Shown: positions 9,455 to 63,171 of the stretch, one piece after another
Layout: each line of letters starts with the position of its first letter
Numbering within the stretch: the stretch's first letter is position 1
Source of the DNA: a virus
Reading direction: 5' to 3' (one strand)
IMG/VR virus record: IMGVR_UViG_3300047274_000210
Span: 1-64,000 of that record
Length of the DNA: 64,000 bases
Program-made: the position numbers and the translations under genes
Notes under the pieces: model-generated
Databases searched by the model: none
Seen by the model: only the letters and a program-made list of their open reading frames with translations
What the model was told of the DNA's origin: nothing

Positions 9455-10191
9455 TAGGCCGCCTGTGCTGGAATGATGTATTTGTAAACTGCAAGTCCGC
9501 TGTCTAGAGTGATCTGGATAGCACCTTCGTTGCTCAACGACATCTTGGTGTTATTAACATCCGCAACCTTGAGAATACTTAAGATTGGTAGAACAGGCCA
9601 TGTCCAGCCTCTGTCAAGTTTACCTGCTACACTCTGAGCGAAGATGAACTCTCCTGCATGAGTCGATGCATCACCAAAGATAAACTTTAGATTACCGCCT
9701 TCGGTTTTGGCTAAGAATGTTGGATGTTCGTTATGCGCACCTGCTTGGAAGTTAAAACGCTGTACTGCGGCAACAGTGGGTTCGATTTCAACATCCCATT
9801 TAACACCGCGGAATTTCACAGTCTTCATCTTTTCGTTGATGATTTCCTGATTCATAAAACGATAGTCGTTTTTGAAGTCACCATCTTTGTTTTCAAAGTG
9901 GATGCCGACCGGTATAGTTTCGCCGTTGCGCTCAGCAAACGTGATATTGATCTTAGCTTCTTCTTTGTATTCAGCACCGTCTACTAGATATTTTAATTTC
10001 TGTAGTTGCGGCATACCAAATGTACCGATCATGTCGGGATATGGATTAGCAGTTTCTGCCTCCATAATAACTGATCGATCGTCAGCCATTGAAAAGATCT
10101 GTGTCTTATCTTCTGAACCTGTGACTTTGACTGTGGTTAAGAAGCCTAGATTTTGTGTGTGGCTTACGATGTCTTGTAAAATGTCTTTCAT
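9454..10191 (-). CDS. 45: sliding clamp (T4 gp45-like)
   Basis: 245 residues, close to the 228 of T4 gp45. Trimeric processivity ring for the gp43 polymerase and, in T4, the mobile activator of late transcription. The sequence shows the two-domain clamp pattern with a KFIFGDASTHAGEFIF strand pair and a C-terminal VYKYIIPAQ strand. Its neighbour is the polymerase, and the clamp loader gp44 is at 30 kb. A host-type promoter lies directly upstream (10217-10245). The recognition rests on family pattern and context rather than on a catalytic motif. Confidence 0.88.
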   Translation of the reverse strand: MKDILQDIVSHTQNLGFLTTVKVTGSEDKTQIFSMADDRSVIMEAETANPYPDMIGTFGMPQLQKLKYLVDGAEYKEEAKINITFAERNGETIPVGIHFENKDGDFKNDYRFMNQEIINEKMKTVKFRGVKWDVEIEPTVAAVQRFNFQAGAHNEHPTFLAKTEGGNLKFIFGDASTHAGEFIFAQSVAGKLDRGWTWPVLPILSILKVADVNNTKMSLSNEGAIQITLDSGLAVYKYIIPAQAA

Positions 10192-13639: not shown

Positions 13640-14506
13640 TTAGTTTTGTTGTTCGCTTAGTACGTCATACATTTCAAATCTGCCGCCCATACGCTCGTAT
13701 ACCATACCTGCATAGACTTCAGCTTTCATGCCTTCGCCTAGTTTGGTCTTAGCTACACGCTCGGCCCAGGCAAACAATTCTTTGTCTAGGGGATCGATCT
13801 GTTGTTGACCGCCGCTTTCGACAACTAATTTCATCATGTCTTTGAAAGACATCGGTTGTTCGACTGATTCTGCAACAACTTTCTTAGATGTTTTAACAGA
13901 CTCGTTTTTCTTACCAAAGTACTTGGCCTGTTTAGCACTCATACCCTTTTTACCATCTTTCTTGTCGTCGGCTTTAGAAGCAGACTTCATTGGTTCTTTC
14001 TTGTCACCGTCTTTGTCTAGATCGAGAAAATCTGGCTTGGCGGCTTCGTCCATCTTCTTTTTCTTAGATTCTTTTTTCTTTTCTTCTTTCTCAGCCTTTT
14101 TAGCTTCGACCATCTTCATGAACTTTGATTTAAACAATTCTGGATCAATAGACTCTTTCTTAGCTTTCTTTTTAGCTTTCGGCTCGTCGTCATCATCGTC
14201 GTCCTTGTCTTTGCCATAGGAACGCTCGTGTTTAATACCGGTAGCAGTCTTGGTCATTGTACCGTGTTGTGTCTTGACTTTGTCGCCAACTTTTTTAAGA
14301 TCTTCCTGACCCTCGTCGACCTTTTCTTCTTTTTTCTCATCCTTCTTCATCTTTTTAGCTTCTTCTAAAATAGATGAAGTTCCGGCTAGCACACGTAGCT
14401 GTGCATCTTCGTTTAATTGCACAGATTTAGGCAGCTCTGGAGCAGCGACGGTTTTGATCTTGTCATCCATTTCGCTGATTTTGGTAATTAATGATTTAAA
14501 GTCCAT
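13640..14506 (-). CDS. Lys/Asp/Glu-rich prohead-core or internal head protein (288 aa)
   Basis: Begins MDFKSLITKISEMDDKI; the rest is low complexity (DKDDDDDDEPKAKKKAKK and long KKE runs) with blocks DFLDLDKDGDKKEP and SAKQAKYFGKK seen in virion proteins of T4-like aquatic phages. The C-terminus (DPLDKELFAWAERVAKTKLGEG) is a folded helix. The extreme charge fits a scaffold or DNA-packing internal protein. Late element GATAAATA lies 35 nt upstream; AAGGA precedes the ATG; an intrinsic terminator follows. Assigned by composition and neighbourhood. Confidence 0.65.
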   Translation of the reverse strand: MDFKSLITKISEMDDKIKTVAAPELPKSVQLNEDAQLRVLAGTSSILEEAKKMKKDEKKEEKVDEGQEDLKKVGDKVKTQHGTMTKTATGIKHERSYGKDKDDDDDDEPKAKKKAKKESIDPELFKSKFMKMVEAKKAEKEEKKKESKKKKMDEAAKPDFLDLDKDGDKKEPMKSASKADDKKDGKKGMSAKQAKYFGKKNESVKTSKKVVAESVEQPMSFKDMMKLVVESGGQQQIDPLDKELFAWAERVAKTKLGEGMKAEVYAGMVYERMGGRFEMYDVLSEQQN

Positions 14507-14541
14507 GTTAAAAAAATCCTTGATTTTAAAGAGTCATACTG

Positions 14542-14549
14542 TATTTATC
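14542..14549 (-). promoter_or_regulatory. late-type promoter element GATAAATA
   Basis: Minus strand, 35 nt before the ATG at 14506, overlapping the stop codon of the 14545-14733 gene. Confidence 0.6.
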
Positions 14550-14733
14550 TTTTGATTAAAGAACCGCCTGTTAGCAGATTAACACCTGGTATGTCTAAGG
14601 CATTGGGGGCAGTTCCGTTCTTTTTCTTTTTAGGCTGTTTTCCTGGCTTATTGGGGTAAACAACACCTACAGATACATTGCCCGCCGAAGTAGCACCCGC
14701 TGTAGCTGTTTCTAATAAGTCTCGTATTTTCAT
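14545..14733 (-). CDS. small internal-head-type protein (62 aa)
   Basis: MKIRDLLETATAGATSAGN at the N-terminus, a Lys/Pro-rich centre (NKPGKQPKKKKN) and a C-terminus ending GGSLIKR. The first ten residues resemble the capsid targeting peptides of T4 internal proteins. There is no ribosome binding site: GGTAAATA-N5-ATG immediately precedes, so the mRNA may be leaderless. Confidence 0.65.
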   Translation of the reverse strand: MKIRDLLETATAGATSAGNVSVGVVYPNKPGKQPKKKKNGTAPNALDIPGVNLLTGGSLIKR

Positions 14734-14737
14734 AGTA

Positions 14738-14745
14738 TTATTTAC
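14738..14745 (-). promoter_or_regulatory. late-element variant GGTAAATA 5 nt before ATG
   Basis: Minus strand GGTAAATA, then ATACT, then the ATG of the 14545-14733 gene at 14733. It overlaps the stop codon of the preceding gene. One of five starts with a 4-5 nt spacing between element and start codon. Confidence 0.5.
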
Positions 14746-15244
14746 CGCGGCCGCTTTTCATGTTAGCACACCAATGATACATTTTAGCCTTTTCTCCGCT
14801 GGCGTTTTTAGCACGTTTACGCAAATCAGTTACAGATCCAGAACAACTCGCACCTGCACGTTTCACACGTCCGGGCCTGCTTTTGCCTTTTACTCGACCA
14901 TCTGCAAAGTTTTCTTCGACTTCAAACTCCTTGCCTACTAATTTAACGCCTACTGTATCTTGTATTAACTTCCAAGCCAGTCCTTTTTTACCTTTGCTCA
15001 ACAGCTCTTTAAAAAGTTCTTTTTTCTTATCATCGGCTATTTGAAAGAATTTCATTACTTCCATAGCACCTATGTTACCTGGATAAGATGCTTCTCCCCC
15101 GGCGGCATCGCCCCCGATGCCTCCCCCATCTCCGCTATAACCCACGGCATAACCGTATCCGCCGTAGGGGCCTGGTCCGTAAGCAGCCCAACGTGGCTTT
15201 CTTTTCTTACGCTTCTTTTCTACGATAAATTCGTGTGCTCTCAT
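14738..15244 (-). CDS. basic internal-head-type protein with Cys/His/Trp C-terminal domain (168 aa)
   Basis: N-terminus [19 protein letters not shown] looks like a T4-type capsid targeting peptide, then a Gly/Tyr-rich spacer, a helical part and a strongly basic C-terminus ([33 protein letters not shown]). That C-terminal block recurs in virion proteins of aquatic T4-like phages, and its basic nature suggests DNA binding inside the head. ATGA overlap with the erpA stop upstream. Confidence 0.7.
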
Positions 15245-17745: not shown

Positions 17746-19170
17746 TTACCAGTTCCTGCAGCTCCAATAACGAGCTTTCCATCTTGGTCCTGGATTGGAG
17801 CAACGATGACGGGCTCTAAAACTCTTTCTGCGACTAGGATTAGATTTCTTAATACGCATTTTTTTATCGCCGAAATTTACTTTGACGATGTTACCGTTTG
17901 GTTTACGAACATATACTTTGTATTTTTTTACATCACCGGGTAGCTTTTTACCTAGCTGAACTTTTCTGCCTCTATAGTCAGCTTCGTCGAGGTCGTGTTC
18001 AACGCTTTCACTACCGCCGACTAATTTACCTTTAGGATAACCTGCAGGATCTTTGCCCTTTAATTGACCGGCTGGACCTTCTTTCTGTCCTACTTTTCTG
18101 CCTGCGAAAGGATAACGCCCTTCGGTATAGCTATTGGATTTCATGTAGTCTCTGGCAGTGTCTATATAGTCTGCTGCCTTATTAATCTTACTCTGTACCC
18201 ATTCTGGTAGATTGTCATCTACATCTAACATATTATATAATTCTTTGGCAGCATCGTTGATTGTGCGTAGGTCGTCTTTTGCCATGTCGCCTTCGTTGTC
18301 GTATTCTCCACGATTTGCTGGATCTTCTGGATCTTCGGAGTGATCTTCTTCGAACCCGTAATCACCGTAATCCTCATCAGATCCGTGACCAGCGGATGCC
18401 AATGCATATGCATCGTCGGTGTCGCCGCCTTCGTCTTCATCTCCGCCCTGAGCAAGTTCTTCGAACTCGTCTTGCAGGTCGTCGACATAAGGTTCTAATC
18501 TAGGAACCTCACCGCCGTCTTGATCGGAGTAAGCAGACCATACTTCTTCAGTAGCGCCTTCAAAGTCTCCTTGTCTAAGCATTGCTACGACTTTGCTAAC
18601 ATCTGGATCTCCGTAGGCACCAATTTCCATGGCATTTTCTTCGAATCTTTTCAGCAATGATTTTACTTCGTCTTCAAGGGAACCAAACCCTTCGGAAACT
18701 TTAACGCAGTTGTCTACAGTTTTGCCGCCTTTCTTTTTGGTGCCCATACGTCTGTAGCCTTTCCAACAGGCTTTGCCGTCGACGCCTTTTTGTTTTTCTG
18801 ATTCTTTGAGATAGCCTTCTAGGAAACTAAATCCCTGACCTTCTAATAGATCTAGAGCGAATTCGTCTAGTTCGATAACGATTCCGTCTTTAACGAAACC
18901 TACAACCGAAGATTCGATTTCAAAATCTTCGTTGAAACTGATACCGAAATCATCTCCTAGTTGGATTCCTTCTGAAAATCCCTTGGCTTTAGCTTCTTTT
19001 TCTAAATCGGCTTTTCTTTGGATGATTGCTTGTTTGATTTCTGGATCTTCAGCGGCAGTGGGATCCATCTGCAGATCCTGCAAGGCCTTGCGCTTGGCGG
19101 CAAGATCTTCCTTGTCTTTGAGTGCTGTTTCGCTGACGATAGCGTCTAATTTATTTAAAAGGTCTCTCAT
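17746..19170 (-). CDS. large acidic internal-head/structural protein with basic C-terminal domain (474 aa)
   Basis: N-terminal MRDLLNKLDAIVSETALKD leader; an ACWKGYRRMGTKKKGGKTVD block near residue 135; a very acidic middle (EELAQGGDEDEGGDTDDAYA); and a basic C-terminal module KVNFGDKKMRIKKSNPSRRK then RARHRC...ARYWSCRNW. The last module is shared by virion proteins of many aquatic T4-like phages. Several E-G sites (KVSEGFGSL, SYTEGRYPF) could be prohead-protease cuts. Late element GATAAATA 24 nt upstream of the ATG; GGAAGATACT ribosome binding site. Confidence 0.7.
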   Translation of the reverse strand: MRDLLNKLDAIVSETALKDKEDLAAKRKALQDLQMDPTAAEDPEIKQAIIQRKADLEKEAKAKGFSEGIQLGDDFGISFNEDFEIESSVVGFVKDGIVIELDEFALDLLEGQGFSFLEGYLKESEKQKGVDGKACWKGYRRMGTKKKGGKTVDNCVKVSEGFGSLEDEVKSLLKRFEENAMEIGAYGDPDVSKVVAMLRQGDFEGATEEVWSAYSDQDGGEVPRLEPYVDDLQDEFEELAQGGDEDEGGDTDDAYALASAGHGSDEDYGDYGFEEDHSEDPEDPANRGEYDNEGDMAKDDLRTINDAAKELYNMLDVDDNLPEWVQSKINKAADYIDTARDYMKSNSYTEGRYPFAGRKVGQKEGPAGQLKGKDPAGYPKGKLVGGSESVEHDLDEADYRGRKVQLGKKLPGDVKKYKVYVRKPNGNIVKVNFGDKKMRIKKSNPSRRKSFRARHRCSNPGPRWKARYWSCRNW

Positions 19171-19194
19171 AGTATCTTCCGTAAGATGATACTA

Positions 19195-19202
19195 TATTTA
19201 TC
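19195..19202 (-). promoter_or_regulatory. late-type promoter element GATAAATA
   Basis: Minus strand, 24 nt before the ATG at 19170; the transcript would cover the head-protein cassette down to the terminator at 13595. Confidence 0.65.
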
Positions 19203-19214
19203 GCTTTTGAATTC

Positions 19215-19571
19215 TTAGACTAGATAACTAACAGATGTGATAGTACCGTTTTGTATGTTGTATGCAGCACGTACCCATACAAAATTACCGGAAAAATTAA
19301 AGGTGCTAGCAGAAGTCCACGCAGAACTGTCCTCGCCTAGCCCTATAGTTGTATTATCTACATCAAACCAATCCGATGCTGCGGGATCTAAAGCTAGAGT
19401 CGCTTGTATTTTGATAGTGCCGACAAAATCTGTGACCTGATAAACAACAGTGTGTATAGGGTTACTTTTTTTGTGATACCCTGCTCCGGGATACTTGCCT
19501 CCGTAGCTATAACTAGAATCGACAGATTCTAAGCTGATATTTTCTAGTAGAACATGAATTTCGTTGGACAT
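19215..19571 (-). CDS. probable structural protein (118 aa), leaderless-type start
   Basis: Beta-rich sequence with GGKYPGAGYHKKSNP and NFSGNFVWVRAAYNI strands, typical of small virion-associated proteins. The ATG at 19571 shares a base with the upstream TGA, and GATAAATA lies 4 nt before it with no Shine-Dalgarno sequence. Confidence 0.6.
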   Translation of the reverse strand: MSNEIHVLLENISLESVDSSYSYGGKYPGAGYHKKSNPIHTVVYQVTDFVGTIKIQATLALDPAASDWFDVDNTTIGLGEDSSAWTSASTFNFSGNFVWVRAAYNIQNGTITSVSYLV

Positions 19572-20251
19572 CAAGTATTTATCAACAAAACATGCTCGTA
19601 GACCTTGCCCACAGCATCAGGATTAGCCATTTTCATCATTAGAAGAGTGGCTTCGTCAGTTACTAGCACATATCGGCGATCCCAGTTCCAGTCTGTTTTG
19701 ATAAACCAGTCCTTTACAGTATTTGAAATCTTTATCCTGCCATTTTGTGTATCTAACCAAGATAAAAATTGCTCTTTTCTATCACGATCTTGTTTGAGTC
19801 TATGGGGTGTTAGAAAAACCTTATATCTAAATTTATCATGCGGCAGTTTATTGACCACTATAAGATTTGATTTTGATAGTAAATCAATGGAATTTTCTTC
19901 TGGTTCAAAATGGTGTGTGATTAAATCTTGAAATAGAGTACAGGCATTAACATAGATGTTTTGATCATTGGTATATAGATCTATTAGATTAGATTCTAAT
20001 CGTTTAGTATAATCGTCCGGATTTAATGTTTTTAAGAATTTACAGAGTTCAACGATTTCTTCTGAATGTGCTAGAGCTCTTCTTAAGATACTGTGTCTGG
20101 CTACATTGCCAGATTCCGGATCCAACATAAAACCAATAGTGTCATCTAAGGATTTGGTCCTTAAGATTGACACACCGCTGATTTTTAGGGTAATTTTATA
20201 TAACCATTTACCGTAAAATTTTCTATTGGTTATTTTCTTCTTTGATATCAT
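19571..20251 (-). CDS. conserved hypothetical protein (226 aa)
   Basis: Basic N-terminus (MISKKKITNRKFYGKWLYKI), then a domain with conserved KFRYKVFLTPHRLKQDRDRK and FIKTDWNWDRRYVLVTDEAT blocks. I have seen the same blocks in other T4-like phages but not with a function. Overlaps the clpA-like gene by 29 nt. Confidence 0.6.
   Translation of the reverse strand: MISKKKITNRKFYGKWLYKITLKISGVSILRTKSLDDTIGFMLDPESGNVARHSILRRALAHSEEIVELCKFLKTLNPDDYTKRLESNLIDLYTNDQNIYVNACTLFQDLITHHFEPEENSIDLLSKSNLIVVNKLPHDKFRYKVFLTPHRLKQDRDRKEQFLSWLDTQNGRIKISNTVKDWFIKTDWNWDRRYVLVTDEATLLMMKMANPDAVGKVYEHVLLINT
19576..19583 (-). promoter_or_regulatory. late-type promoter element GATAAATA 4 nt before ATG
   Basis: Minus strand GATAAATA, CTTG, then ATG of the 19215-19571 gene. 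Located inside the last codons of the upstream gene. Confidence 0.55.
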
Positions 20252-23059: not shown

Positions 23060-23897
23060 TATTTTTTAATTTCTCGATAGTAGACTTTGTCTGTTGATTT
23101 ATATTTTTTGGTATTTCTACTTTAATTTTTATTAATAGATTACCGCGTCTTTGAGTTCTCATCAAAGGTAAGCCTTCGTTCTTACAGCTGAGAACAGTTT
23201 CTGGTTGTGTGCCAGGCGGCACTGAAATTTGTAGAGTTTTGTTATCCAGGGTTTTAATACTGAGAGAACAGCCTAGGATAGCATCCCATACTGAAACTAT
23301 TTTATCTACAACAATGTTTGATCCTTCTCTACGGAATTCAATATGCGGTAGTACTCTTATGTTTACTAAAAGATCACCGGGGGGCATATGAGGTATGCTG
23401 TTATCCCCCATACCTTGATATCTGATCTGTTGATTGTCTTCTATGCCAGGAGGAATACTGATGTTGATGATTTTCTTTTTACCGCCGGGGATAGCTAGTT
23501 CTGCATCAATATCTTTTCCCTGTAGAACTTCTTCTAGTGTGATCTCTACAGCGATGTTTATGGATTTGTTTCTCTGCACATTCCTATTACCAAAACCAAA
23601 CGGGCCACCGAACCCGAAATTTCCAAATATGTCGTTCATGTTGCCCGTGCCAAAATGGAATTCGAACGGACCTTGATTATAAAATCCACCGTTTTGATTA
23701 TTGGGATCACCTCCCATATCAAACACCTGTTTCTTTTGTGGATCGCTTAGTGTGCGATAAGCTTCTTCAACTTCTTTGAATTTTTTTTCGTCTCCGCCTC
23801 GATCGGGATGATATTTCATAGCCATCTTTCGATAGGCTGATTTTATCTCATCCTGACTAGCATTTCTATTAACACCTAAAATATTATAGTAATCCAT
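23049..23897 (-). CDS. dnaJ: DnaJ/CbpA-type co-chaperone
   Basis: About 282 residues from the ATG at 23897 (MDYYNILGV); an ATG five codons upstream is possible. J domain at 1-65 with the HPD motif ([13 protein letters not shown]), a Gly/Phe-rich linker ([16 protein letters not shown]), then the C-terminal substrate domains without the zinc-finger repeats, so closest to CbpA/type II J proteins. It would stimulate host DnaK. There is no ribosome binding site; a TATAAT box lies 6 nt before the ATG, hinting at a leaderless mRNA. Confidence 0.93.
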
Positions 23898-23903
23898 ACT
23901 TGT

Positions 23904-23932
23904 ATTATACATGAAGACAAAGGCCGCGTCTA
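23904..23932 (-). promoter_or_regulatory. sigma70-type promoter for dnaJ
   Basis: TAGACG (23927-23932), 17-nt spacer, TATAAT (23904-23909). The -35 box falls in the terminator hairpin loop and the dnaJ ATG begins 6 nt after the -10 box. Confidence 0.5.
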
Positions 23933-25302: not shown

Positions 25303-25572
25303 TTAAAATCCAAGAATGTTTTTCTTAGGCGGATCAATTACCACCTGTTTACTGTGTTGCTGCAAATTCTGTAGCTGCATAATAGCTGTGGCTCTTACAG
25401 ACGCATCACTGCTTTTAGTCATTTCTATAAGAGCATTAAGTCTAGCTGCTTCAGTTATTGTCAAATCTTTGGAAATAGATTTTTGTGCTTCTACATAGAT
25501 TTGATAATCATTGTTAGTGGTAGCACATCCTGCTAGAGTTAGGCAAAAAACTGATACGATAATTGCTTTCAT
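25303..25572 (-). CDS. lipoprotein (89 aa)
   Basis: ATG at 25572 chosen over an upstream GTG. Lipobox LTLAGC gives a lipidated Cys at about residue 15; the next residues (ATTNND) lack Asp at +2, so outer-membrane sorting is expected. The mature part is helical (ARLNALIEMTKSSDASVRATAI). Second lipoprotein in tandem; either this or its upstream neighbour could be the o-spanin. Confidence 0.7.
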   Translation of the reverse strand: MKAIIVSVFCLTLAGCATTNNDYQIYVEAQKSISKDLTITEAARLNALIEMTKSSDASVRATAIMQLQNLQQHSKQVVIDPPKKNILGF

Positions 25573-27721: not shown

Positions 27722-28229
27722 TTGCTGTTTCCTGTGCTGCTGCGGTTTGATCAGTAGTTTGAGAAACTACACCACTGAGATTCAGTATATCTTCAACTTT
27801 ATTCTTATCGAGATTCCTATATCCTCGATTGATATCATTCATTAATTTTTTAGGAATAGTTATCTTGACCAACCAGATATCTTCGTGATCTATTTTTCCT
27901 TTTTTAGTTCCAGGACGTATGTCGTCGGGTTTTTTAATTCTACGAACCTTGGCCAGCTTTGATTCCGCGATCTGAACTTTGCATCCGTAGTCTAATAATC
28001 TAACACCGCCCTTGGGCTCTGGCATATTTTCTTTAGGCCACATGAACGTGCATTCTACGAAATAGCGTGATTCTCTGGGCCCTGCAACTAGCTCTCCGTC
28101 TAGCCAGTTGTCGTAGACATAGATATCTAACTCATCTATAACTCTCTCAAAATCTTTGAGCAAATTTAAGCTATTGTTAGAGCCGTAGATCTGTTCTATG
28201 TTACTAATAATGTCTTTAATATCAGCCAT
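27699..28229 (-). CDS. conserved hypothetical protein (176 aa)
   Basis: ATG at 28229 with GGGAGAAATT. Blocks DIYVYDNWLDGELVAGP, CTFMWPKENMPEPKGG, LLDYGCKV and DIWLVKITIPKKLM are conserved in T4-like aquatic phages; C-terminus Ala/Gln-rich. A GATAAATA element lies 15 nt upstream, so expression is late. No enzymatic motif. Confidence 0.6.
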   Translation of the reverse strand: MADIKDIISNIEQIYGSNNSLNLLKDFERVIDELDIYVYDNWLDGELVAGPRESRYFVECTFMWPKENMPEPKGGVRLLDYGCKVQIAESKLAKVRRIKKPDDIRPGTKKGKIDHEDIWLVKITIPKKLMNDINRGYRNLDKNKVEDILNLSGVVSQTTDQTAAAQETANAEQPAA

Positions 28230-28244
28230 AATTTCTCCCAAATG

Positions 28245-28252
28245 TATTTATC
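28245..28252 (-). promoter_or_regulatory. late-type promoter element GATAAATA
   Basis: Minus strand, 15 nt upstream of the ATG at 28229; heads the unit containing the conserved pair and the endolysin. Confidence 0.65.
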
Positions 28253-36693: not shown

Positions 36694-37248
36694 TTAAAAC
36701 AAGCCTAGATCTAGACTGACTGTTCCTGGGTTAGATATAGTTCCGAAATCTATGTTTGCTGCTGACAGGGCTAGCTGCAAGACATTGGTAAAATCTTGAT
36801 TGATAGTTCCGAAATCATAATAGGTTAAAATCTGCGTAACAGGTAATACTGTGTTAACTGATATAACACTACCAACGACACTGGTGGTGATATTTTCAGT
36901 ACCGTCGGCTCCCTGGAGAGTGATATTGATATAATCATCTCCTAATACTGTGCCGTTGTTGGTATCTATTCTTACAAAGCCGTCGGGCTGTTGATTATTA
37001 ATTACGATAGAATCTGTGAATTCTTCTAGGAATATTTTAGTACCGGAAACCAGTTTTTTGAATTTTAGATCAGCGCCTACTTTTTCTTTGAAAACGCCAA
37101 TACCAGTAGAACCCGTATTGCTGGCAGTTACAGTTAAACTAGCATTTAATTCTGCAAAGTTTGCATTTACTTTTTGGAATGCCGTGCGTAGGTCATCGCC
37201 TAAGCCGTCGTTGACTTGATTACCGATATTAATTGTTTGTATAGTCAT
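36694..37248 (-). CDS. short tail-fibre protein with shared docking motif (184 aa)
   Basis: N-terminal module INIGNQVNDGLGDDLRTAF then QKVNANFAEL (about 5-32) is the same motif as in the neighbouring fibres. The rest is beta-rich, low-charge sequence (GADGTENITTSVVGSVISVN). Likely a short fibre bound to the same baseplate site. Confidence 0.75.
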   Translation of the reverse strand: MTIQTINIGNQVNDGLGDDLRTAFQKVNANFAELNASLTVTASNTGSTGIGVFKEKVGADLKFKKLVSGTKIFLEEFTDSIVINNQQPDGFVRIDTNNGTVLGDDYINITLQGADGTENITTSVVGSVISVNTVLPVTQILTYYDFGTINQDFTNVLQLALSAANIDFGTISNPGTVSLDLGLF

Positions 37249-37274
37249 AATCCGCTCTCTTTAGTATATTTAAC

Positions 37275-40322: not shown

Positions 40323-42773
40323 TTATGCCTCTAGCTGTACTACAGTTAGTGTGACAGTGATAGTGGTTGTGCCACCACTCTTGTTTGTTACAGCTAATTG
40401 AATATTAGTATCTGGACTAGTTTCGTTGCTGAATCCTAGGGCACCTGGACTTACTAATATAGTCTGTGCTCCTGTGGTTATCACTTCTGCGATCACACCT
40501 GCACCAGGCGCAGGATCTACTCCTTCTAATCTAGAACCATCTGCGGTCCTACTAGCTATATCTGTATAAATCCTGACCCAAGCCGCTGCTGAAGTTTGGA
40601 TTTTGTATAACATATAACCTTTGTAACCGGTTATGGTTAGATTTCCTGTGGCAGCATTAGCGAGGCTGGCCGTAGTTGCTGATATGTTTGATCTTGATTG
40701 TAGACTTCCACCGCCTCCCGAAACAGTACCAGGTAACCATTTACTGCTGGTTGAATTCCAAACCAGACTCTGTCCATTAGTGGGTGGAGTTGTCGAAGTA
40801 TCAACATCAGAAAGAGCATCAATGCTAGTGGATGAATATGCTGCTGGAATCGTTGGTAGATTAGATAGGTCGTTATAACTACCGCTGGTAGCCACAGTGG
40901 CCAAAGAAGGTCCTGTGATAGTAACTTGTCCTTCACCGTCTGTGGCTGTGGTAATACCTGCCGAGCCGACAAATTTCAATGTTTCTCCCGAGAACAATCT
41001 TCTTACTGTTGAGTCGTCTCCGGCAACATTTAATTCAAAATCTCCTGTGCCGCTGCCGCCTGTACCTCCCGACGGAGTTGGTCCCCATGTAACTTCTTTG
41101 TCTGAAGGATTATAATAAAGTACCTGTGGCCCAGTGACTTCTCTGATAGGCGACACATAAAATCCTATAGCACTTCCGTTAAGTACTATTCCCGATGCGT
41201 TGATAATAATACTACCGGCAGGTTGATTAGTAACTCCTGCCTGGTTACCTATGGCTATGGCATTATTACCTTGATTGTTTTGTCCCGCATAGACTCCAAC
41301 AGCCACAGCACTGTTACCTTGATTGAATTCACCTGCATTAGATCCAACCGCTACAGCAGCCTGCGATTGATTTAGTTTTCCGGCATATGAGCCAATGCCT
41401 ACTGTGTATCCCTGGGGATTTGTTTTCTGTGCCTCCCAACCAATACCCACTGTGTAGTTTGAAGTACTGGTTGCCCCAGCATTGTAACCTAAGTATATGG
41501 AAGCCTCGCTGGTTCTTAGACGTCCAGTCTCAATGTCACCGACTATCTTTCCGGTGGCAGCATTGATCAGTAGTGTTGACGTTTCAGAATATACGTTACC
41601 CTTGACATAGTTTACATCGATAGTAAGGCTGTCGTTGATCTCATTGGTAGATAGTACTATACCATCACCTGCGACAAATGTCACTGTGTCTGATGCATTG
41701 TCTGCTTGTAAAGGATTCTGTCCTGGTGTAGATACTGCTATGTTTACGAATCCGTATCTGGTATTAGATACTACCACAGTTCCTGTGCTGGTATTGATGC
41801 CTATACCGCTGCCCGCAGAAATCGCTGTGACTCCTGTGTTGGTCAGAGTCAAGGAACCTGTACTACCTGATACGCTTAGACCAGGAGATGCCACAGCAAG
41901 GCTGGTCACCCCAGTGTTGGTTACTGTAACTGTGTCTGAAGCTGGTGTGGTAGTTATGTTTATTCCATTACCGTTGGCCAATGTCAATGTAGCCAGCGGA
42001 TCGCCGGCGATCAATGTTACCTGACCAGAGACCGCGATATTTCTATATAAATTCTGTGTGGTATTAGGTGCGCTGTTGGTAATTCTAACTACACCGGGCG
42101 TGGAAGTATCAAGGCTGATACCTGAACCGGGATCTGTAACCACGCTTAGAACACCAGTATTTGCCACGGTTATATTTCCTGTAGCAGCACTTACGCTCAT
42201 GCCGCTGCCTGCTACAAGACCAGTAACTCCTGTGTTAGTAAATGTTACAGCGCCGGATGCAGCACTTACACCTATACCAGTGCCTGCTAGAGCTGAAGTT
42301 ACACCGTTATTAGTGATAGTCAAGGTATCAGTACTGGCATTTGTTGTAATGGAAATTCCACCACCTGATGCTATGTTTAGTACGTCGTTACCGCCTGCAT
42401 CTGCAACAATGCTGTCCTGTCCAGTAACCGCGATGGATTTGAAATATTCTTGATCGAGTATTGAGCCGCCTATAGAACTTCCTGGAGGCAAATTAACCTT
42501 GCCATCCACAGAAGAAATCACAGCATCACCTAGATAAATGGTAGTTCCAGTAAGATAAAGATCACGCCATCTCTTGGTAGTTGATCCGAGATCATAGGTT
42601 CCGCTGTCACTAGGCACAACATTTGTAGGAAGGGCATTGAAATCAACTACACCCCCGGGACCTCCTACGGTAGCATATAATTCAGTGAAATTTAAATTTA
42701 TGTCCTCGAAGGCTTGGTCTATGGTACTCCATAATATAGGAGCCTTTTTGGGGTCTATTGTTCTTCTTGCCAT
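40323..42773 (-). CDS. tail fibre with repeat stalk and YadA-like head repeats (816 aa)
   Basis: Begins MARRTIDPKKAPILWSTI..AFEDINLNFTELYATVG, a divergent copy of the docking motif. Residues about 150-350 carry repeats of GSGIxVSxxTGxVTVxNTGV. Residues about 440-520 carry the left-handed roll repeats seen in YadA/Hia heads (AVAVGSNAGEFNQGN; AVAVGVYAGQNNQGN). The C-terminus is a beta-rich tip. Extended adhesin predicted. TAATG coupling with the giant fibre. Confidence 0.8.
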   Translation of the reverse strand: MARRTIDPKKAPILWSTIDQAFEDINLNFTELYATVGGPGGVVDFNALPTNVVPSDSGTYDLGSTTKRWRDLYLTGTTIYLGDAVISSVDGKVNLPPGSSIGGSILDQEYFKSIAVTGQDSIVADAGGNDVLNIASGGGISITTNASTDTLTITNNGVTSALAGTGIGVSAASGAVTFTNTGVTGLVAGSGMSVSAATGNITVANTGVLSVVTDPGSGISLDTSTPGVVRITNSAPNTTQNLYRNIAVSGQVTLIAGDPLATLTLANGNGINITTTPASDTVTVTNTGVTSLAVASPGLSVSGSTGSLTLTNTGVTAISAGSGIGINTSTGTVVVSNTRYGFVNIAVSTPGQNPLQADNASDTVTFVAGDGIVLSTNEINDSLTIDVNYVKGNVYSETSTLLINAATGKIVGDIETGRLRTSEASIYLGYNAGATSTSNYTVGIGWEAQKTNPQGYTVGIGSYAGKLNQSQAAVAVGSNAGEFNQGNSAVAVGVYAGQNNQGNNAIAIGNQAGVTNQPAGSIIINASGIVLNGSAIGFYVSPIREVTGPQVLYYNPSDKEVTWGPTPSGGTGGSGTGDFELNVAGDDSTVRRLFSGETLKFVGSAGITTATDGEGQVTITGPSLATVATSGSYNDLSNLPTIPAAYSSTSIDALSDVDTSTTPPTNGQSLVWNSTSSKWLPGTVSGGGGSLQSRSNISATTASLANAATGNLTITGYKGYMLYKIQTSAAAWVRIYTDIASRTADGSRLEGVDPAPGAGVIAEVITTGAQTILVSPGALGFSNETSPDTNIQLAVTNKSGGTTTITVTLTVVQLEA
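41215..41470 (-). repeat. YadA/Hia-head-like repeats in fibre
   Basis: Protein-level tandem units of about 14 residues, such as SAVAVGVYAGQNNQG and NAIAIGNQAGVTNQP, encoded here. The units form a left-handed beta-roll in trimeric autotransporter heads. Confidence 0.6.
41740..42320 (-). repeat. stalk repeats GSGIxVSxxTGxVTVxNTGV
   Basis: At least six copies of a roughly 20-30 residue unit, seen as recurring NTGVT/NNGVT segments between Ser/Thr-rich strands. Repetition at the DNA level is diverged, so recombination is not obvious. Confidence 0.6.
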
Positions 42774-48700: not shown

Positions 48701-50179
48701 GATAGCAGTGGGAGTATTAGTGAGTACATCCCCAGTAAAGTCAGTTCTATAAAAATCAGTTCTAATTAAAAATCTTGGCAGATTAACGATAACCGAAGGT
48801 AAGGCAGTGAAGTTAGATCCTTGATCGGTAATCGTGATACTCTGAACTATACCTCCTACAACATCGGCAGTACCGAATGCTCCCGACCCTGTGGTATCTC
48901 CAGGAGCTGGAATAATTCTTACAGAAACTAGGCCGTAGCCGCTACCTCCTGCATCAACAATCACATTGTTGACCTTATAGGTTAGATCGAATGTAGCACC
49001 AGCACCAAAGGCACTGTTATCAGTAGTGGCGATGTTAGTTGAACCGGGGAGTGCAGTATACACACCTGAGCTGAGTTGTAATACAGAAATAATACCGCCT
49101 GCTTCTGTAATAGAAAGAACCTGATATCTTGCAGGCTGAGTAGCAGTACCACCGCTAACAGTTAAAATATCGCCGATCTTATAGTTAACGCCTAGATTAT
49201 TAATAGCGACAGTATCAACGCTCATCAGGGCGTGTCCTAGGAAGCCTCCACCGGACGCAGGAGCTTCTGTGATACCTGCTAGTGTACAGAAGCTAGCGCC
49301 TTGGTTATAGGTCAGTAATTTTTTATAAGGACCTATTTCAAGTCTAGATTCTAAGATTAATTCTTCTGCTCTCTTGCAGGCTGCTTCTATGGTCCTATAG
49401 GCGTAGGCCAGAGCACGACCTTGTAGGGCTGCACTAACCCCAACTCTGTCGTCCTGCCCCGAAGTAGCCACATATAAATTGACGGTGCTACCAAATGCTG
49501 AATTATCTACATATCTTTTGGTAGCAGCCACAAGACCATTATGGACTAGATCATCTTCTGGTATCGGATCTCTGGAAAGTATCAACGGTCCAGTCATCTG
49601 GCCAAATGCAGGTGTCGGATCACCTGTTACCGGATCTATGCCATCAATACCTGCTAGAGATATTTTGCTGTCTGCATATCTCTTGTTTACGGCCACTCTA
49701 CCTGGATCGTCTACATCGTTGTTAGTTCCGTAGATACTGGTAACTCTAGCGAATGCAGCAGTGAATTCAGCGGGATCGGTTAAATCCGGTAAGTTGGCTA
49801 TGGTGTATCTATTATCACCGCTGAATGCATTTAATGGCCCGCCTAGCTGAGGTGCAGGATCTGCGGATACTCTAGAGAATTCTGCCGAAATTCTAATTTC
49901 ACTAGCATTAGTGGTAAAGTCTACACTGATACCCGAACCCGGAACTAGCTGTTTAAAAGCTAGACCTGTTTCTGTGTTATTAACGGATAATATCGCATTT
50001 TCTTGTCCTAGATAGTCTGCCGGAGTGTCATCTAGATTAATGAAGGTGAGTTTTTCACCTAAGCCCAGAGAGCTATAAAGCTCACGGAAGTTGTCGTTTA
50101 CTTTTCTAAACGAATCGCGTATACTATCACCGGTACCGTCATTACCAACTGTACCTATATCAATTATTTTACGTGCCAT
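42773..50179 (-). CDS. giant tail fibre/adhesin (2468 aa)
   Basis: The largest gene of the window. N-terminal docking module IDIGTVGNDGTGDSIRDSF, RKVNDNFRELYSSLGL. Three homologous modules about 350-500 residues apart contain RDVGLIIDxxxYDLxYGG and KSGLRYY signatures (near 46.6, 47.0 and 48.1 kb). Two repeats with ASPAVxTxxSHG and TGSLPxGI (near 45.0-45.5 kb) follow. The C-terminal tip has a YADLAEYYEGDREYEVG domain followed by glycine-rich VVGRIRKGDILVTTGIPG, common at phage fibre tips. Late element GATAAATA lies 31 nt before the ATG; CAGGA ribosome binding site. Confidence 0.85.
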   Translation of the reverse strand: MARKIIDIGTVGNDGTGDSIRDSFRKVNDNFRELYSSLGLGEKLTFINLDDTPADYLGQENAILSVNNTETGLAFKQLVPGSGISVDFTTNASEIRISAEFSRVSADPAPQLGGPLNAFSGDNRYTIANLPDLTDPAEFTAAFARVTSIYGTNNDVDDPGRVAVNKRYADSKISLAGIDGIDPVTGDPTPAFGQMTGPLILSRDPIPEDDLVHNGLVAATKRYVDNSAFGSTVNLYVATSGQDDRVGVSAALQGRALAYAYRTIEAACKRAEELILESRLEIGPYKKLLTYNQGASFCTLAGITEAPASGGGFLGHALMSVDTVAINNLGVNYKIGDILTVSGGTATQPARYQVLSITEAGGIISVLQLSSGVYTALPGSTNIATTDNSAFGAGATFDLTYKVNNVIVDAGGSGYGLVSVRIIPAPGDTTGSGAFGTADVVGGIVQSITITDQGSNFTALPSVIVNLPRFLIRTDFYRTDFTGDVLTNTPTAIRGRDIREGLYLRGETSGALAQILAHQGALDSDGNEIFDVDIKYGSFQDDEIISYGDVARQKQISILVESGIYEENLPIRIPVNTSIVGDEFRRVIIRPKPGRSSSPWAFIHFRRDLTVGEENTDLLTVADRLFGYHYLTNSGQPVYPIVNNKGYYRSAAQLLLLNREFIQKEVIGWISHQVQNNIDPFTSSFEYDAEVCERDVGLIIDSMIFDLRYGGSSRTISAALKYFGNASGLVAINDQLSETVAGIRRINTLAQLVIRNVEVTEIYQTAVPQIVDGAYISEVGAGGTSISISGVTSADPVVVTTSSAHGLSNGDQILISEVGGTTAINGNDYYVEVIDSTSVYLYNDLSLTDAVDGTNFGAYTSGGYITNNGGVIGALTDVIIDVISGSVAVNYPKNNNEMDVFLCNDAVRFQAVTFQGHGGFAMVLDPEGQILAKSPYAQECASFSRSTGRQTFAGGQYVDGFTGNLKFRIISKDSNTFLRVGDLMRMPQLPASFIVRDTVYRINYVRDFVFNPAGSTASLVLDESTPWPFDVFSYDDEICSRDVGLIIDGLGYDIALGTNYHARKSGLSYRQANAHVVVEDQLQLTLDAIEFAHTTAYELLDSYPAAQSVVQSSELVILDIIENGTTFAPTLTFTNPTGLSSDLVKAKNQLVNNVTFIKDEVIGYINSTYPSLVYDSDNFSRDIQYIIEALIYDLIYGGNSETRKSGLRYYDGVGNAEVLQIPSGQLLETSAGILYASYLAQQVIQNLPPATTYSLTTRTTGPAATATEATTINTLLANVNSILLGGTSAAAAEVLPTLSAYPYATNDLNARTILVTEKADIQQAVIDYVDENANVYEILMPGNRSMLSNDFTQINDLGYGIVVNNGGLVEAVSMFTYYCHISYYSMGGGQIRSVAGSSAHGNYALVAQGADPLEVPTPVTLYYDLGQGITCYYPSGTFANTLGGLVLFVTYDDYVPLDVSELEVDHGLGQIYRYPVVSVSTADLPAGVARLGLRSSEGTGTDGLAAVIPDGTRMTIRQNAQVVLTGDVVDVAVRPSTGLVLAESVDVYRILQFENYTDPSGGYVFTISIASPAVITRASHGLKPGYQFSLSTTGSLPTGVDTVTVYYVLSDEFTANSFRFSATKNGSAIVTSGSQSGTHSYLVEGLARTTLRENYNYVDLSLWSIQPYSSSSQACTITIASPAVVTAVSHGFVVGDVIRFETTGSLPGGISINKHYFVTATPSLDTFRFSDVSGVSAVDLDTFGSQSGTHVVGKVKGYIGDDTLAVTPLGTADSERVLGTKFVWKGTTHTISSYSNETVTGEPYGLITFSPALADSAVYFTYLPTFKSATLKHEPGTLTIRISLTRVTSHDLLEIGTGSYADTNYPNEIYGPPVNSINDANETEERGVGRVFYVTTDQFGNFSVGPYFRVDQGTGTVTFAAAIALSNLDGIGFKRGVPVSEFSTDTGFSDNATDTVPTENATRGYLDRRLGLSHTGDIISSGSLIPAITGGFMALDGQLAMKADMDIGGNKIENLADPTGPQDAVNLRSLVASNFQEFDIVDPRAGDLLVYTGNQKDAENASVVGDISLSIDSTAHTIDAQINPGVIVNADINASAAIIQSKLSLQAATTRANATGITQADRGLASFDSAQFDVTGGWVTLKDNGIALSDLPQVATKTVLGNTTLITNNVSAVPFTDVVNDGGAIKKSQFSSGTGYLRRIGFTFNNDTDYAIVDESSANTASTLVKRDSNGDFAARNISVERLVVDTKTVLDTTTSLTGGYTQVYGFLGQVGILIGDGSVATDKRSFYDNDGHTFRTQNGLANAPIVCSSVQATLLTTGAVSTAGTVTGNWSLSAGSRFQATYADLAEYYEGDREYEVGTVLVFGGDKEVTTTTVKMDTRVAGVVSDTAAYTMNSACPGYKNLIALQGRVKCKVVGRIRKGDILVTTGIPGVAGLPENQAQAGTIIGKSLQDYDSDHIGTIEVAVGRT

Positions 50180-50238: not shown

Positions 50239-50246
50239 TGTAAATA
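50239..50246 (+). promoter_or_regulatory. late-element variant TGTAAATA 4 nt before ATG
   Basis: Plus strand TGTAAATA, ACTT, then ATG of the 50251-50538 gene. No Shine-Dalgarno sequence is present; divergent from the GATAAATA element of the giant fibre. Confidence 0.45.
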
Positions 50247-50250
50247 ACTT

Positions 50251-50538
50251 ATGTTCTTGAAAACTAAATCACAAGAAAGTCAATATGTTAGGATCAGTAA
50301 GCTAGGTACTGAACATACCTATACGAGGAAAAAAACTCTAGCTGTGTTTAGATGTGATAACTGTGATAAGAATTTTGAAAGAGAACTAAAAAAGGTATCT
50401 AGCAAACGACTCAGTAACAATTACTTTCACTGTTGCTCTGATTGTGATAGTAAAAGATTCGCTCAGCGCAAAGGAGTTGAGCGTAAAAAGATTTGGGATA
50501 TGCCGGCCAGCGTAGAGCTACCAGTTTCTAAATTCTAA
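50251..50538 (+). CDS. zinc-finger-like hypothetical protein (95 aa)
   Basis: Central CDNC (about 35-38) and CCSDC (about 61-65) pairs within a basic protein (KKTLAVFRCDNCDKNFEREL) suggest a treble-clef or zinc ribbon. No ribosome binding site; element TGTAAATA 4 nt upstream. Its end overlaps the end of iscA by 11 nt on the opposite strand. Function unknown, maybe nucleic-acid binding. Confidence 0.6.
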   Translation: MFLKTKSQESQYVRISKLGTEHTYTRKKTLAVFRCDNCDKNFERELKKVSSKRLSNNYFHCCSDCDSKRFAQRKGVERKKIWDMPASVELPVSKF

Positions 50539-50848
50539 AACTTTCCCCGCAACCGCAACGATCTCGTTCGTTGGGATTGATAAAATCAAAACCTTCGTTA
50601 AGACCATTTTTGATCCAATCCATGGTCATTCCGTTGATGTAAGGCAAAGCTCTAGGATCTACAAATACGTGTATACCTTGGCTGACAAAGCTCATATCTT
50701 CATCTAAAGGATCGTCAACATATTCCAATACATAGGCCAAGCCACTGCATCCTGTAGTCTTTATACCGACTTTAATACCATGCCCGCTGCCTCTACGCTC
50801 TAGATTCGCACGAACTTTTTCAGCTGCTAGCGGTGTCAATGATATCAT
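50528..50848 (-). CDS. iscA: A-type Fe-S carrier, IscA-like
   Basis: 106 residues, the family length. GIKTTGCSGLAYVLEYVDDP (about 28-47) and RCGCGESFRI at the C-terminus carry the three cluster-binding Cys, and LNEGFDFINPN matches bacterial IscA. It receives iron or [2Fe-2S] clusters from IscU and passes them to apoproteins. Overlaps the iscU end by 29 nt, with AAGGCCAAAC as ribosome binding site, so the two are co-transcribed. Confidence 0.94.
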   Translation of the reverse strand: MISLTPLAAEKVRANLERRGSGHGIKVGIKTTGCSGLAYVLEYVDDPLDEDMSFVSQGIHVFVDPRALPYINGMTMDWIKNGLNEGFDFINPNERDRCGCGESFRI

Positions 50849-51221
50849 GTTTGGCCTTATAATCTGCTATTGCGGCTTTGATAGCATCTTCCGCAAGGAT
50901 TGAACAGTGGATTTTAACCGGAGGAAGAGCCAGCTCAGTGGCGATATCTGAGTTCTTGATATCCTGTGCCTGCTGTAAGTTCCTACCTTTGAGCCATTCC
51001 GTTGCCAGTGAACTCGACGCGATCGCCGAACCGCAGCCATAAGTTTTAAACTTCGCATCTGTGATAATGCCCTCTTCGTTGACTTTAATCTGTAGCTTCA
51101 TTACATCCCCGCAGGCAGGAGCACCAACCATACCGGTGCCTACCTCGGGATCGTCCTTGGCAAAGCTACCTACATTGCGAGGGTTCTCGTAGTGATCAAT
51201 AACTTTGTCTGAATATGCCAT
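50820..51221 (-). CDS. iscU: Fe-S cluster scaffold IscU
   Basis: 133 residues. GMVGAPACGDVMKLQIKVN (about 29-47), FKTYGCGSAIASSSLATEW (about 57-75) and PPVKIHCSILAEDAIKAAI (about 98-116) supply the three cluster Cys plus the Asp of CGDVM and the LPPVK motif that HscA recognises. It is strikingly like beta/gammaproteobacterial IscU, implying a recent bacterial origin. It assembles [2Fe-2S] clusters with sulphur from IscS, which is not in the window. AGAGGAACAGGA precedes the ATG. Confidence 0.96.
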   Translation of the reverse strand: MAYSDKVIDHYENPRNVGSFAKDDPEVGTGMVGAPACGDVMKLQIKVNEEGIITDAKFKTYGCGSAIASSSLATEWLKGRNLQQAQDIKNSDIATELALPPVKIHCSILAEDAIKAAIADYKAKHDIIDTASS

Positions 51222-52023: not shown

Positions 52024-52581
52024 TCAAGTTGCTAATCTAATATTAACTACATCCCAGTCAATAATTCGCCAGATGTTAGATAGATATTTTGCCTTATCGG
52101 GGCCGTAATCTGTAAACCAAGAGTGTTCCCAAGCATCTATCAACAGTGCAATCTTCATGGTCTTTTTATATTCGTGATTATGTATCGTGTGCAGTGCGCC
52201 GAGGGTATCCATATAGATCCAATTGGATCCTTGAGCGGCCATGAACTCTTTTTCAACAGCTTCTTTAAACTTATCAAAACTATCATACTTTTCTTCTATT
52301 AGAGTTTTACTGATTCCCTCTGGTTTATTAGCTGCTCTAGGTGGGGTAAGATTAGCAAAGAACAGGTTGTGTAAGATCGCGCCGCCGTAGTTAAAGTCGG
52401 GATCACCTTCTCCTTTGTTATATCGTTCAGAATACTTGGCAGCGAGTCCGTCATAATGATACTTGATAGTAGCTTCGCTCATCACAGGTTCTAGCTCGTC
52501 TTTGGCAAATTTGAGCTTGTCTTGATATAGTTCTCGCTTGTCCGCGGCTTCTGTTAGAGATTTAATAAAATGTAAGGGCAT
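52024..52581 (-). CDS. Fe/Mn superoxide dismutase-like protein
   Basis: 185 residues from the ATG at 52581. Metal ligands in family positions: His in EATIKYHYDG, His in YGGAILHNLFF, and Asp/His in IDAWEHSWFTDYG; the C-terminus IWRIIDWDVVNIR is typical. AAQGSNWIYMD is the GSGW-type strand. It converts superoxide to H2O2 and O2. N-terminal 23 residues extend beyond the usual start. There is no ribosome binding site: GATAAATA-N5-ATG. Confidence 0.88.
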   Translation of the reverse strand: MPLHFIKSLTEAADKRELYQDKLKFAKDELEPVMSEATIKYHYDGLAAKYSERYNKGEGDPDFNYGGAILHNLFFANLTPPRAANKPEGISKTLIEEKYDSFDKFKEAVEKEFMAAQGSNWIYMDTLGALHTIHNHEYKKTMKIALLIDAWEHSWFTDYGPDKAKYLSNIWRIIDWDVVNIRLAT

Positions 52582-52586
52582 ACAAA

Positions 52587-52594
52587 TATTTATC
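52587..52594 (-). promoter_or_regulatory. late-type promoter element GATAAATA 5 nt before SOD ATG
   Basis: Minus strand GATAAATA, TTTGT, then ATG. At the T4 spacing the transcript would start at the A of the ATG. Confidence 0.55.
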
Positions 52595-53187: not shown

Positions 53188-53496
53188 ATGGAACTACTTC
53201 TTTTAGCAATCGCCGTTTTAGCAGTAGGTGGAATTTGGTATTATAATCGCAACACCAAAAGTTTTGATGTTAATCAAGACGGCAAGGTTGATGTGCAAGA
53301 TGCCAAGGCCGCTGTTCAAATCGCAGTAGAAGGTGTCAAGGCAGACGCAGACGTAAACAAGGATGGCAAGGTTGATGCAGCCGATGCACAGATCGTTGTT
53401 GAACAAACCAAGACCAAGGTCAAGGCTGCGGCTAAGAAAACCAAAGAAACTGTTAAGAAAGCAACGACTCGCGGTCGCAAGCCAAAGGCTGAGTAA
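53188..53496 (+). CDS. membrane-anchored dockerin/EF-hand-like protein (102 aa)
   Basis: N-terminal TM anchor (MELLLLAIAVLAVGGIWYY), then two dockerin type I-like repeats: FDVNQDGKVDVQDAKAAV and ADVNKDGKVDAADAQIVV, each with the D-x-N-x-D-G-x-V/D-x-x-D calcium loop. A Lys-rich tail (KAAAKKTKETVKKATTRGRK) follows. AAGGAG before the ATG. Could bind calcium and a partner at the membrane, or bind nucleic acid through the tail; no cohesin is seen. Its end overlaps the uvdE end by 44 nt. Confidence 0.75.
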   Translation: MELLLLAIAVLAVGGIWYYNRNTKSFDVNQDGKVDVQDAKAAVQIAVEGVKADADVNKDGKVDAADAQIVVEQTKTKVKAAAKKTKETVKKATTRGRKPKAE

Positions 53497-56878: not shown

Positions 56879-57754
56879 TTAGCCTCGCTCTTTGATTTCT
56901 CCGAACGGATACCATGCACCCGGACTGCCTGCTCTTAGACATACCCAACCTATGTTTGCACCAACTCTTGGAGACTCATTCCAGATCATATCTCCTACAG
57001 CATAGGTTCCGCTCTGTGGCGGTGCAGATGCATACATCTGTATGTGACCGTTAAATCTTACAGGACCTGCAACATGTAGATCAACAGCAGGATCTGGCAC
57101 TTGCACGCCGATGCTTAGTTTGCCATTTATTTTAACCTGTATGGGATTTCTATTTGGATTACCCAGATCAATATTACCGTTGGCCTTGACAGCGATACGA
57201 GAAGTGTTGTCAGTGACGATATTAAAATCCGTCGAAGCAAAGGTACCTACCATACCCTGAAGGTCGTCGGTGGTTCCTACCATAACTTCGATGCCCATTT
57301 CTGCTACAGATAGAGCAGCATTAGGAGCTTCGGTGCCTAGTCCAAGACGATCAACAGAACCATTATAGATCAGATATTGATTGATGTTGACAGAGCCGTC
57401 GACGATCAGACCTTTTAGTCTGCCAACAGTCTGCAGATTACTTTTTGTGATTCCGGAACCTAGTTCTTTGCTGTCTAGAACTTTGACGCCCGCTATAGAT
57501 ATGTTCTTATCTTTGTCTAGTTCTATGGACTCAGAAGAGAAAAATCTATCTGGTTCTTCGTTGTAAACGAACTGTTTAGTATGACCCTGACCACTCCAGA
57601 TTATACCTTTGCCCGAATTGCCTGAACCTTTTTTAGCACGGAATTCTAAGAATTGCGTAACTTCTTGTGCTACCGGTTGGTGTGCGGCTTCTACAAGGTC
57701 TTTGAGTACTTTGTTGAGGTCGTTTAGAGTTTGATCTATGTTGGTATTGTTCAT
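56879..57754 (-). CDS. tail-fibre-like protein (291 aa), leaderless-type start
   Basis: MNNTNIDQTLNDLNKVLKDL start, then beta-rich sequence ending in LHVAGPVRFNGHIQMYASAP and GSPGAWYPFGEIKERG, which resembles fibre shaft/tip domains. No ribosome binding site; GATAAATA lies 5 nt before the ATG. Structural function likely. Confidence 0.65.
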   Translation of the reverse strand: MNNTNIDQTLNDLNKVLKDLVEAAHQPVAQEVTQFLEFRAKKGSGNSGKGIIWSGQGHTKQFVYNEEPDRFFSSESIELDKDKNISIAGVKVLDSKELGSGITKSNLQTVGRLKGLIVDGSVNINQYLIYNGSVDRLGLGTEAPNAALSVAEMGIEVMVGTTDDLQGMVGTFASTDFNIVTDNTSRIAVKANGNIDLGNPNRNPIQVKINGKLSIGVQVPDPAVDLHVAGPVRFNGHIQMYASAPPQSGTYAVGDMIWNESPRVGANIGWVCLRAGSPGAWYPFGEIKERG

Positions 57755-57759
57755 ACCAT

Positions 57760-57767
57760 TATTTATC
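57760..57767 (-). promoter_or_regulatory. late-type promoter element GATAAATA 5 nt before ATG
   Basis: Minus strand GATAAATA, ATGGT, then ATG of the 56879-57754 gene. Confidence 0.55.
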
Positions 57768-63060: not shown

Positions 63061-63171
63061 TGGTGTGGTCGGTAGGATTCGAACCTACAAAGGCTGTGTC
63101 TAAGACGGCGCCCTATTCCCTAGTGCGTTTCGCAACGGACCGGAGGTCTTCCATGTTCCACTCACGACCAC
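63061..63171 (-). tRNA. unusual tRNA-like gene (candidate Leu, anticodon UAG)
   Basis: Perfect 7-bp acceptor (63165-63171 with 63065-63071), encoded discriminator plus CCA (63061-63064), perfect T arm GTAGG/CCTAC with loop TTCGAAT. The best anticodon arm has a C-A mismatch and a loop with anticodon UAG. However 76 nt separate the acceptor and T arms, against about 41-57 in normal tRNAs, because of an extra hairpin with a GCGA tetraloop between the D and anticodon regions. It could be a degenerate tRNA, a tRNA with an insertion, or a tRNA-like RNA with another job. Confidence 0.5.

Follow-up and report, generated by a model that had tools for sequence, protein, structure and literature searches.

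Late-promoter boxes four to five nucleotides before the start codon suggest leaderless late mRNAs in a clade of environmental phages

The window analysed here comprises bases 1-64000 of an IMG/VR viral contig with a total length of 66,071 bases, for which a nucleotide search of cultured phages returned no close relative. Five genes of the window carry an 8-bp TATAAATA-like box of the T4 late-promoter type (GATAAATA, GGTAAATA or TGTAAATA) 4 or 5 nt upstream of the ATG. We write N4, N5 and so on for the number of nucleotides between box and start codon. The five starts are given below, each with the span from box to ATG.

52594-52587, minus strand: GATAAATA, 5-nt spacer TTTGT, ATG at 52581 of the superoxide dismutase (SOD) gene; span 52579..52594
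57767-57760, minus strand: GATAAATA, 5-nt spacer ATGGT, ATG at 57754 of the fibre-like gene; span 57752..57767
14746-14739, minus strand: GGTAAATA, 5-nt spacer ATACT, ATG at 14733 of gene 14545-14733; span 14731..14746
19583-19576, minus strand: GATAAATA, 4-nt spacer CTTG, ATG at 19571 of gene 19215-19571; span 19569..19583
50239-50246, plus strand: TGTAAATA, 4-nt spacer ACTT, ATG at 50251 of gene 50251-50538; span 50239..50253

The gene 52024-52581 encodes an Fe/Mn superoxide dismutase-like protein (Pfam Sod_Fe_C, 1e-18), and the fibre-like gene 56879-57754 has weak PHROG tail-fibre matches. Direct reading of the sequence revealed no Shine-Dalgarno (SD) motif ahead of the five starts, and all are present as the initial annotation had described them, with the box at 4-5 nt and without SD. 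They form the complete N4-5 set of open reading frames (ORFs) of at least 50 codons behind TAAATA in the whole 66-kb contig, where the remaining TAAATA-linked starts lie at N15 and beyond except for two at N2. At 25572 (minus strand), GTTAAATA is followed at N2 (AG-ATG) by an 89-codon ORF, nearer than the expected +1.

Other genes of the window have the same kind of box at a larger distance and an SD leader, as in two examples.

28252-28245, minus strand: GATAAATA, 15-nt spacer with the SD GGGAGA, ATG at 28229; span 28227..28252
37274-37267, minus strand: GTTAAATA, 18-nt spacer with AGAG, ATG at 37248; span 37246..37274

The spacing is N31 for the gene starting at 50179 and N29 for that at 10191. 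The class of these four genes (28229, 10191, 37248 and 50179) is unchanged in relatives, and those of the 28229 gene keep both SD and leader. A leadered late box with AAGGAG also precedes 53188-53496 (plus strand), which encodes a small protein with a dockerin/EF-hand-like repeat (Pfam Dockerin_1, 1.5e-9).

Within the window, 5 of 35 TAAATA sites are at N4-5 from a start; for the 14 remaining permutations of this hexamer the figure is 12 of 996 (Fisher p=1.6e-4, post hoc). This enrichment is modest and significant; as the starts had been picked by eye, relatives were needed. Matches to a TATAAATA-like pattern with one mismatch allowed show no excess in the window (100 against 115 expected). 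The signal is the spacing of the box, not the number of boxes.

We used the protein of 17746-19170 as a query and obtained 80 viral loci. Eight contigs from this clade of uncultured, T4-related phages, 94 to 282 kb long and whole or nearly so, make up 1.5 Mb together with the present one. Across these nine contigs 129 of 996 TAAATA sites are at N4-5, against 299 of 33,614 control hexamers (odds ratio 16.6, p=4e-94). ATAAATA occurs 265 times in the 1.5 Mb, and its distance to the ATG of ORFs of at least 50 codons is bimodal, with 71 cases at N4-5 (25 at N4, 46 at N5), 16 at N6-8, 4 at N9-13 and 117 at N14-44. A trough at N9-13 is expected if a start codon is either 5'-terminal or has room for an SD. 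An SD accompanies just 3 of the 71 starts at N4-5 but most of those at N14-33, and the start codons at N4-5 are ATG in 71 cases, GTG in 1 and TTG in 0. When orthologues were collapsed into protein families as a guard against repeat counting, 34 of 134 family-by-spacing entries remained at N4-5 (p=9e-17). A reversed-pattern control in 20 contigs, some of them near-duplicates, gave 112 against 17. The initial annotation had named equal frequency at random spacings as the outcome that would speak against it, and the bimodal, family-collapsed result decisively contradicts that outcome.

The boxes in front of the two classes of genes share the same context. Position 1 of the box is G in 42% of near and 44% of far boxes, and G directly after the box is depleted to 6% and 5%, respectively. 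Five of the nine contigs encode gp55 homologs (PHROG 12791, late-transcription sigma; also PHROG 234), with matches of 1e-80 or better; gp55 was not found in the present contig, a 66-kb fragment. The shared context and the gp55-type sigma of five relatives bear out the earlier reading of the box as a late promoter of T4 type.

The placement of the box can be followed gene by gene. In 66 of 68 assessable relatives of the 19571 gene, with protein identities of 40-78% and drifting spacer sequences, GATAAATA is at N4; the others are one N5 and one N7. Six genomes have the box of the SOD gene 4 or 5 nt from the ATG, and their spacers are unrelated (tttgt, tttc, acggt, cagt). The fibre-like gene has N5 in its own contig and in two relatives (G001 and G015), the 14733 gene N5 in five genomes and N7 in two more, and the 50251 gene N4 in six genomes and N5 in one. 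Pairwise mismatch in families of at least three is near zero in the box core and zero in the ATG, while the spacer, at 0.55-0.60, equals the upstream background. Codon periodicity starts at the ATG in the same families (mismatch 0.34/0.28/0.48). In the families examined the ATG is invariant, and the codons that open the gene vary at third positions while the protein they encode is conserved. Among the near-class genes of relatives are those for the large terminase subunit, a head-tail adaptor, a tail tube-like protein and further virion proteins. Judged from these comparisons, the placement is selected and gene-specific, and each gene holds to one class.

Divergent gene pairs give a view of single promoters. 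Among 35 near-box late genes in divergent gaps of at most 200 bp, none has another late box upstream, and one has a loose sigma70 match. The isolated plus-strand gene 50251-50538 is the plainest such case in the window, with a 71-bp divergent gap in which TGTAAATA-N4 is the sole late box on its strand. At about 41543-41582 of a 99,685-bp relative (G015), two divergent genes 39 bp apart have N5 late boxes back to back.

Two leaders of the window have further short elements. The leader of 17746-19170 (19170-19202, minus strand) reads GATAAATA-TAGTATx-N8..10-x'ATACT-ATG and is kept in about 44 relatives. An SD-like AGGA or GGAAG sits between the arms of its inverted repeat (AGTATx / x'ATACT), whose 5' arm starts 1-2 nt past the box, upstream of the expected +1. 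In many relatives this leader contains an ATG at N4 that either opens a mini-ORF with a stop overlapping the main ATG or extends the N terminus in frame. At 14525-14549 (minus strand), ahead of the leadered gene 13640-14506, the sequence GATAAATA-CAGT-ATG-ACT-CTT-TAA has an ORF of three codons at N4; it is identical in G001, and other relatives have the box without the ATG or a short ORF.

A similar arrangement occurs with sigma70-type promoters. Strict matches (TTGAC, 17-19 nt, TATAAT; 95 sites in the clade) have an ATG at N5 in 7 cases and at N6 in 15; beyond a gap, most others lie at N14-44 and have an SD. The genes of this near set in relatives encode QueE, an SbcD/gp47-like nuclease and DnaJ-like and UvdE-like proteins, the last two named from sequence resemblance and from the UvdE match in the window. 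Leaderless placement would on this showing not be limited to late genes, which goes beyond the initial claim. The window itself has one candidate.

23909-23903, minus strand: TATAATA, 5-nt spacer, ATG at 23897 of a DnaJ-like gene, candidate leaderless sigma70-type start; span 23895..23909

The -35 of this gene is poor in the window and good in relatives (G003, G002, G009). TATAATA had been considered as a control heptamer and was dropped, as its N4-5 cases are sigma70 promoters and now part of the finding.

Six bases separate the sigma70 -10 box from +1. For the T4 late box (-13 to -6) the distance is five bases, with transcription starting about 5-6 nt past the box (PMC2988020). The peaks in the clade are N5 and N4 for the late box and N6 and N5 for sigma70, so that for each promoter type one peak matches the +1 distance of that type and the other is a base shorter. 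Both types would place the ATG at the canonical +1, which for the late box we infer from T4 geometry. In an approximate tally, made with a simple gene finder based on hexamers and with a less strict sigma70 pattern, 105 late-type and 39 sigma70-type near starts were counted among 1,687 genes. About one in twelve genes would be expected to lack a conventional ribosome-binding leader in translation.

The pattern is not general among phages with T4-type late promoters. T4, S-PM2 and Syn9 place their late starts from N9 outwards, with 79 at N14-44 and a single one at N4-5; when the initial 200 kb of each of Phosso and Atu_ph07 are included, these counts become 116 and 1. The near pattern is thus missing in T4, two cyanophages and two rhizobial jumbo phages, and it is present in phages of SAR11 and OM43. 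The pelagimyophages HTVC008M and Mosig and the methylophage Melnitz resemble the clade in having late boxes at N5 (18 starts, with 52 at N14-44), but they differ from it in using N5 only, never N4, and in that no sigma70 counterpart was seen. The deposited HTVC008M CDS starts 6280, 7562, 18916, 19456, 31132 and 49760 match N5 boxes, as does the tape-measure start 16007. A published search for middle and late promoters in pelagimyophages was unsuccessful (PMC7029224), and the literature we searched contained no description of late genes of these three phages as leaderless. The gene-level conservation, the sigma70 occurrence and the lack of the pattern in T4 and cyanophages are additions to what the initial annotation had seen.

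We propose that these starts represent genuine leaderless initiation, a second class beside the leadered genes (probability roughly 0.87); we infer the +1 and the leaderless translation from the features above. Promoters of T4 late type (NATAAATA) would be recognised by a gp55-like sigma, and the box would be placed such that the A of the ATG is +1 or one base off. The transcript would open with AUG, without SD, and would be translated by the leaderless route, in which the ribosome binds the 5'-terminal AUG. A second set of late genes in the same genomes would have leaders of about 10-35 nt with SD, and the sigma70-type set (TTGAC, 17-19 nt, TATAAT, N5-6, ATG) would use the leaderless arrangement for QueE, SbcD-like, DnaJ-like and UvdE proteins. 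The near genes show the traits of leaderless genes, namely a promoter at about the +1 distance, an SD in only 3 of 71 and a preference for AUG over GUG and UUG. Some points count against this reading. If T4 geometry is rigid, transcripts of N4 genes would begin past the A of the ATG unless start-site choice can shift by one base, and 16 starts in the clade lie at N6-8. The lack of gp55 in this fragment, the near-absence of the sigma70 arrangement from candidate host genomes and the downstream SD starts described below also weigh against it.

We considered that the AT-rich box might act in translation, as a standby or S1-type site within longer mRNAs, and not as a promoter. AT-rich sequence near the start can help initiation without SD in some bacteria, and most near-class genes follow a gene on the same strand (57 late ones within 60 nt), which makes read-through possible. 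However, hexamers of the same composition are not equally enriched, the context of near boxes exactly matches that of the far, promoter-like boxes, and in the divergent gaps the near box is the sole late box. The late and sigma70 peaks also differ by one base, as +1 geometry requires and unlike what a ribosome signal would give. We therefore regard a translation signal as very unlikely. A mis-called ATG, with the true start at a downstream in-frame codon behind an ordinary short leader, appears highly improbable. Such a start with an SD within 25 codons exists in 22 of 157 near-class genes, slightly above but close to the background of 94 of 891 SD genes. The invariant ATG and the protein-like conservation of the codons directly after it argue against a mis-call, and the HTVC008M annotators independently chose the same starts. 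Chance placement in an AT-rich genome, spotted by eye, fits the chance-level number of TATAAATA-like matches in the window but is refuted by the window test, the family-collapsed test and the conservation of the single 19571 gene across 68 relatives.

A leaderless programme like that of the Thermus phage phiYS40 would include a shift of the host IF2/IF3 balance by the phage. An IF3 domain was not found in the nine contigs and bS21 is present in two of nine; a phage-borne translation factor of these two kinds is therefore probably not the explanation. At 50820-51221 (minus strand), near the phage SOD, lies a gene for a NifU/IscU-like scaffold that is 77-87% identical to beta- and gammaproteobacterial proteins, which may point to a beta- or gammaproteobacterial host. 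In 12 candidate beta/gammaproteobacterial genomes, picked via the nearest NifU relatives, the sigma70 leaderless habit was not found, only one such arrangement being present. It is conceivable, though we think it doubtful, that two initiation programmes operate clade-wide and that the phages alter the host ribosome in infection, giving the leaderless late messages for terminase, tail tube and head-tail adaptor an advantage over leadered ones and those of the host. The window also has a marginal 108-nt Rfam tRNA match at 63064-63171 (minus strand), which scores 29.1 bits against a cut-off of 29 and is absent from the ARAGORN output. Relatives share its T-arm and CCA end, and it may be an odd or interrupted tRNA.

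The late promoters of T4 and cyanophages (TATAAATA / NATAAATA; gp55, gp33, gp45) share the 8-bp box with the clade and do not need a -35 (PMC2988020, PMC2984593). They also share the gp55-type sigma with the relatives, whereas their late starts are at N9 and beyond. The nearest phage precedent is the Thermus phage phiYS40, likewise lytic, in which many non-early (middle and late) mRNAs are leaderless; its transcription system is unrelated, and Thermus itself is widely leaderless (PMC3594737). The phages described here, in contrast, have a T4-type late sigma and use SD. Among cellular systems, Deinococcus-Thermus comes closest in geometry, with an ORF-adjacent -10 that lies some 6-7 bp ahead of the reading frame and gives leaderless mRNA (PMC12340547). 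This arrangement resembles the sigma70 N5-6 class, as does the -10 geometry of TA-led leaderless bacterial genes (PMC3160421). Both belong to cellular sigma factors and genes, unlike a phage late promoter. A description of leaderless T4-type late genes was not found in the literature searched, which was mostly outside subscription journals.

The T4 late-transcription system is a textbook model that is always drawn with SD leaders. If our reading is true, the same system makes leaderless mRNAs for essential virion genes in environmental phages, and each gene stays in one class over large divergence. The finding suggests a reason why the search for late promoters in pelagimyophages failed. It provides a start-codon rule for the annotation of these phage genomes and, as SAR11 and OM43 phages with the late-promoter pattern are cultured, leaderless late initiation is testable now.
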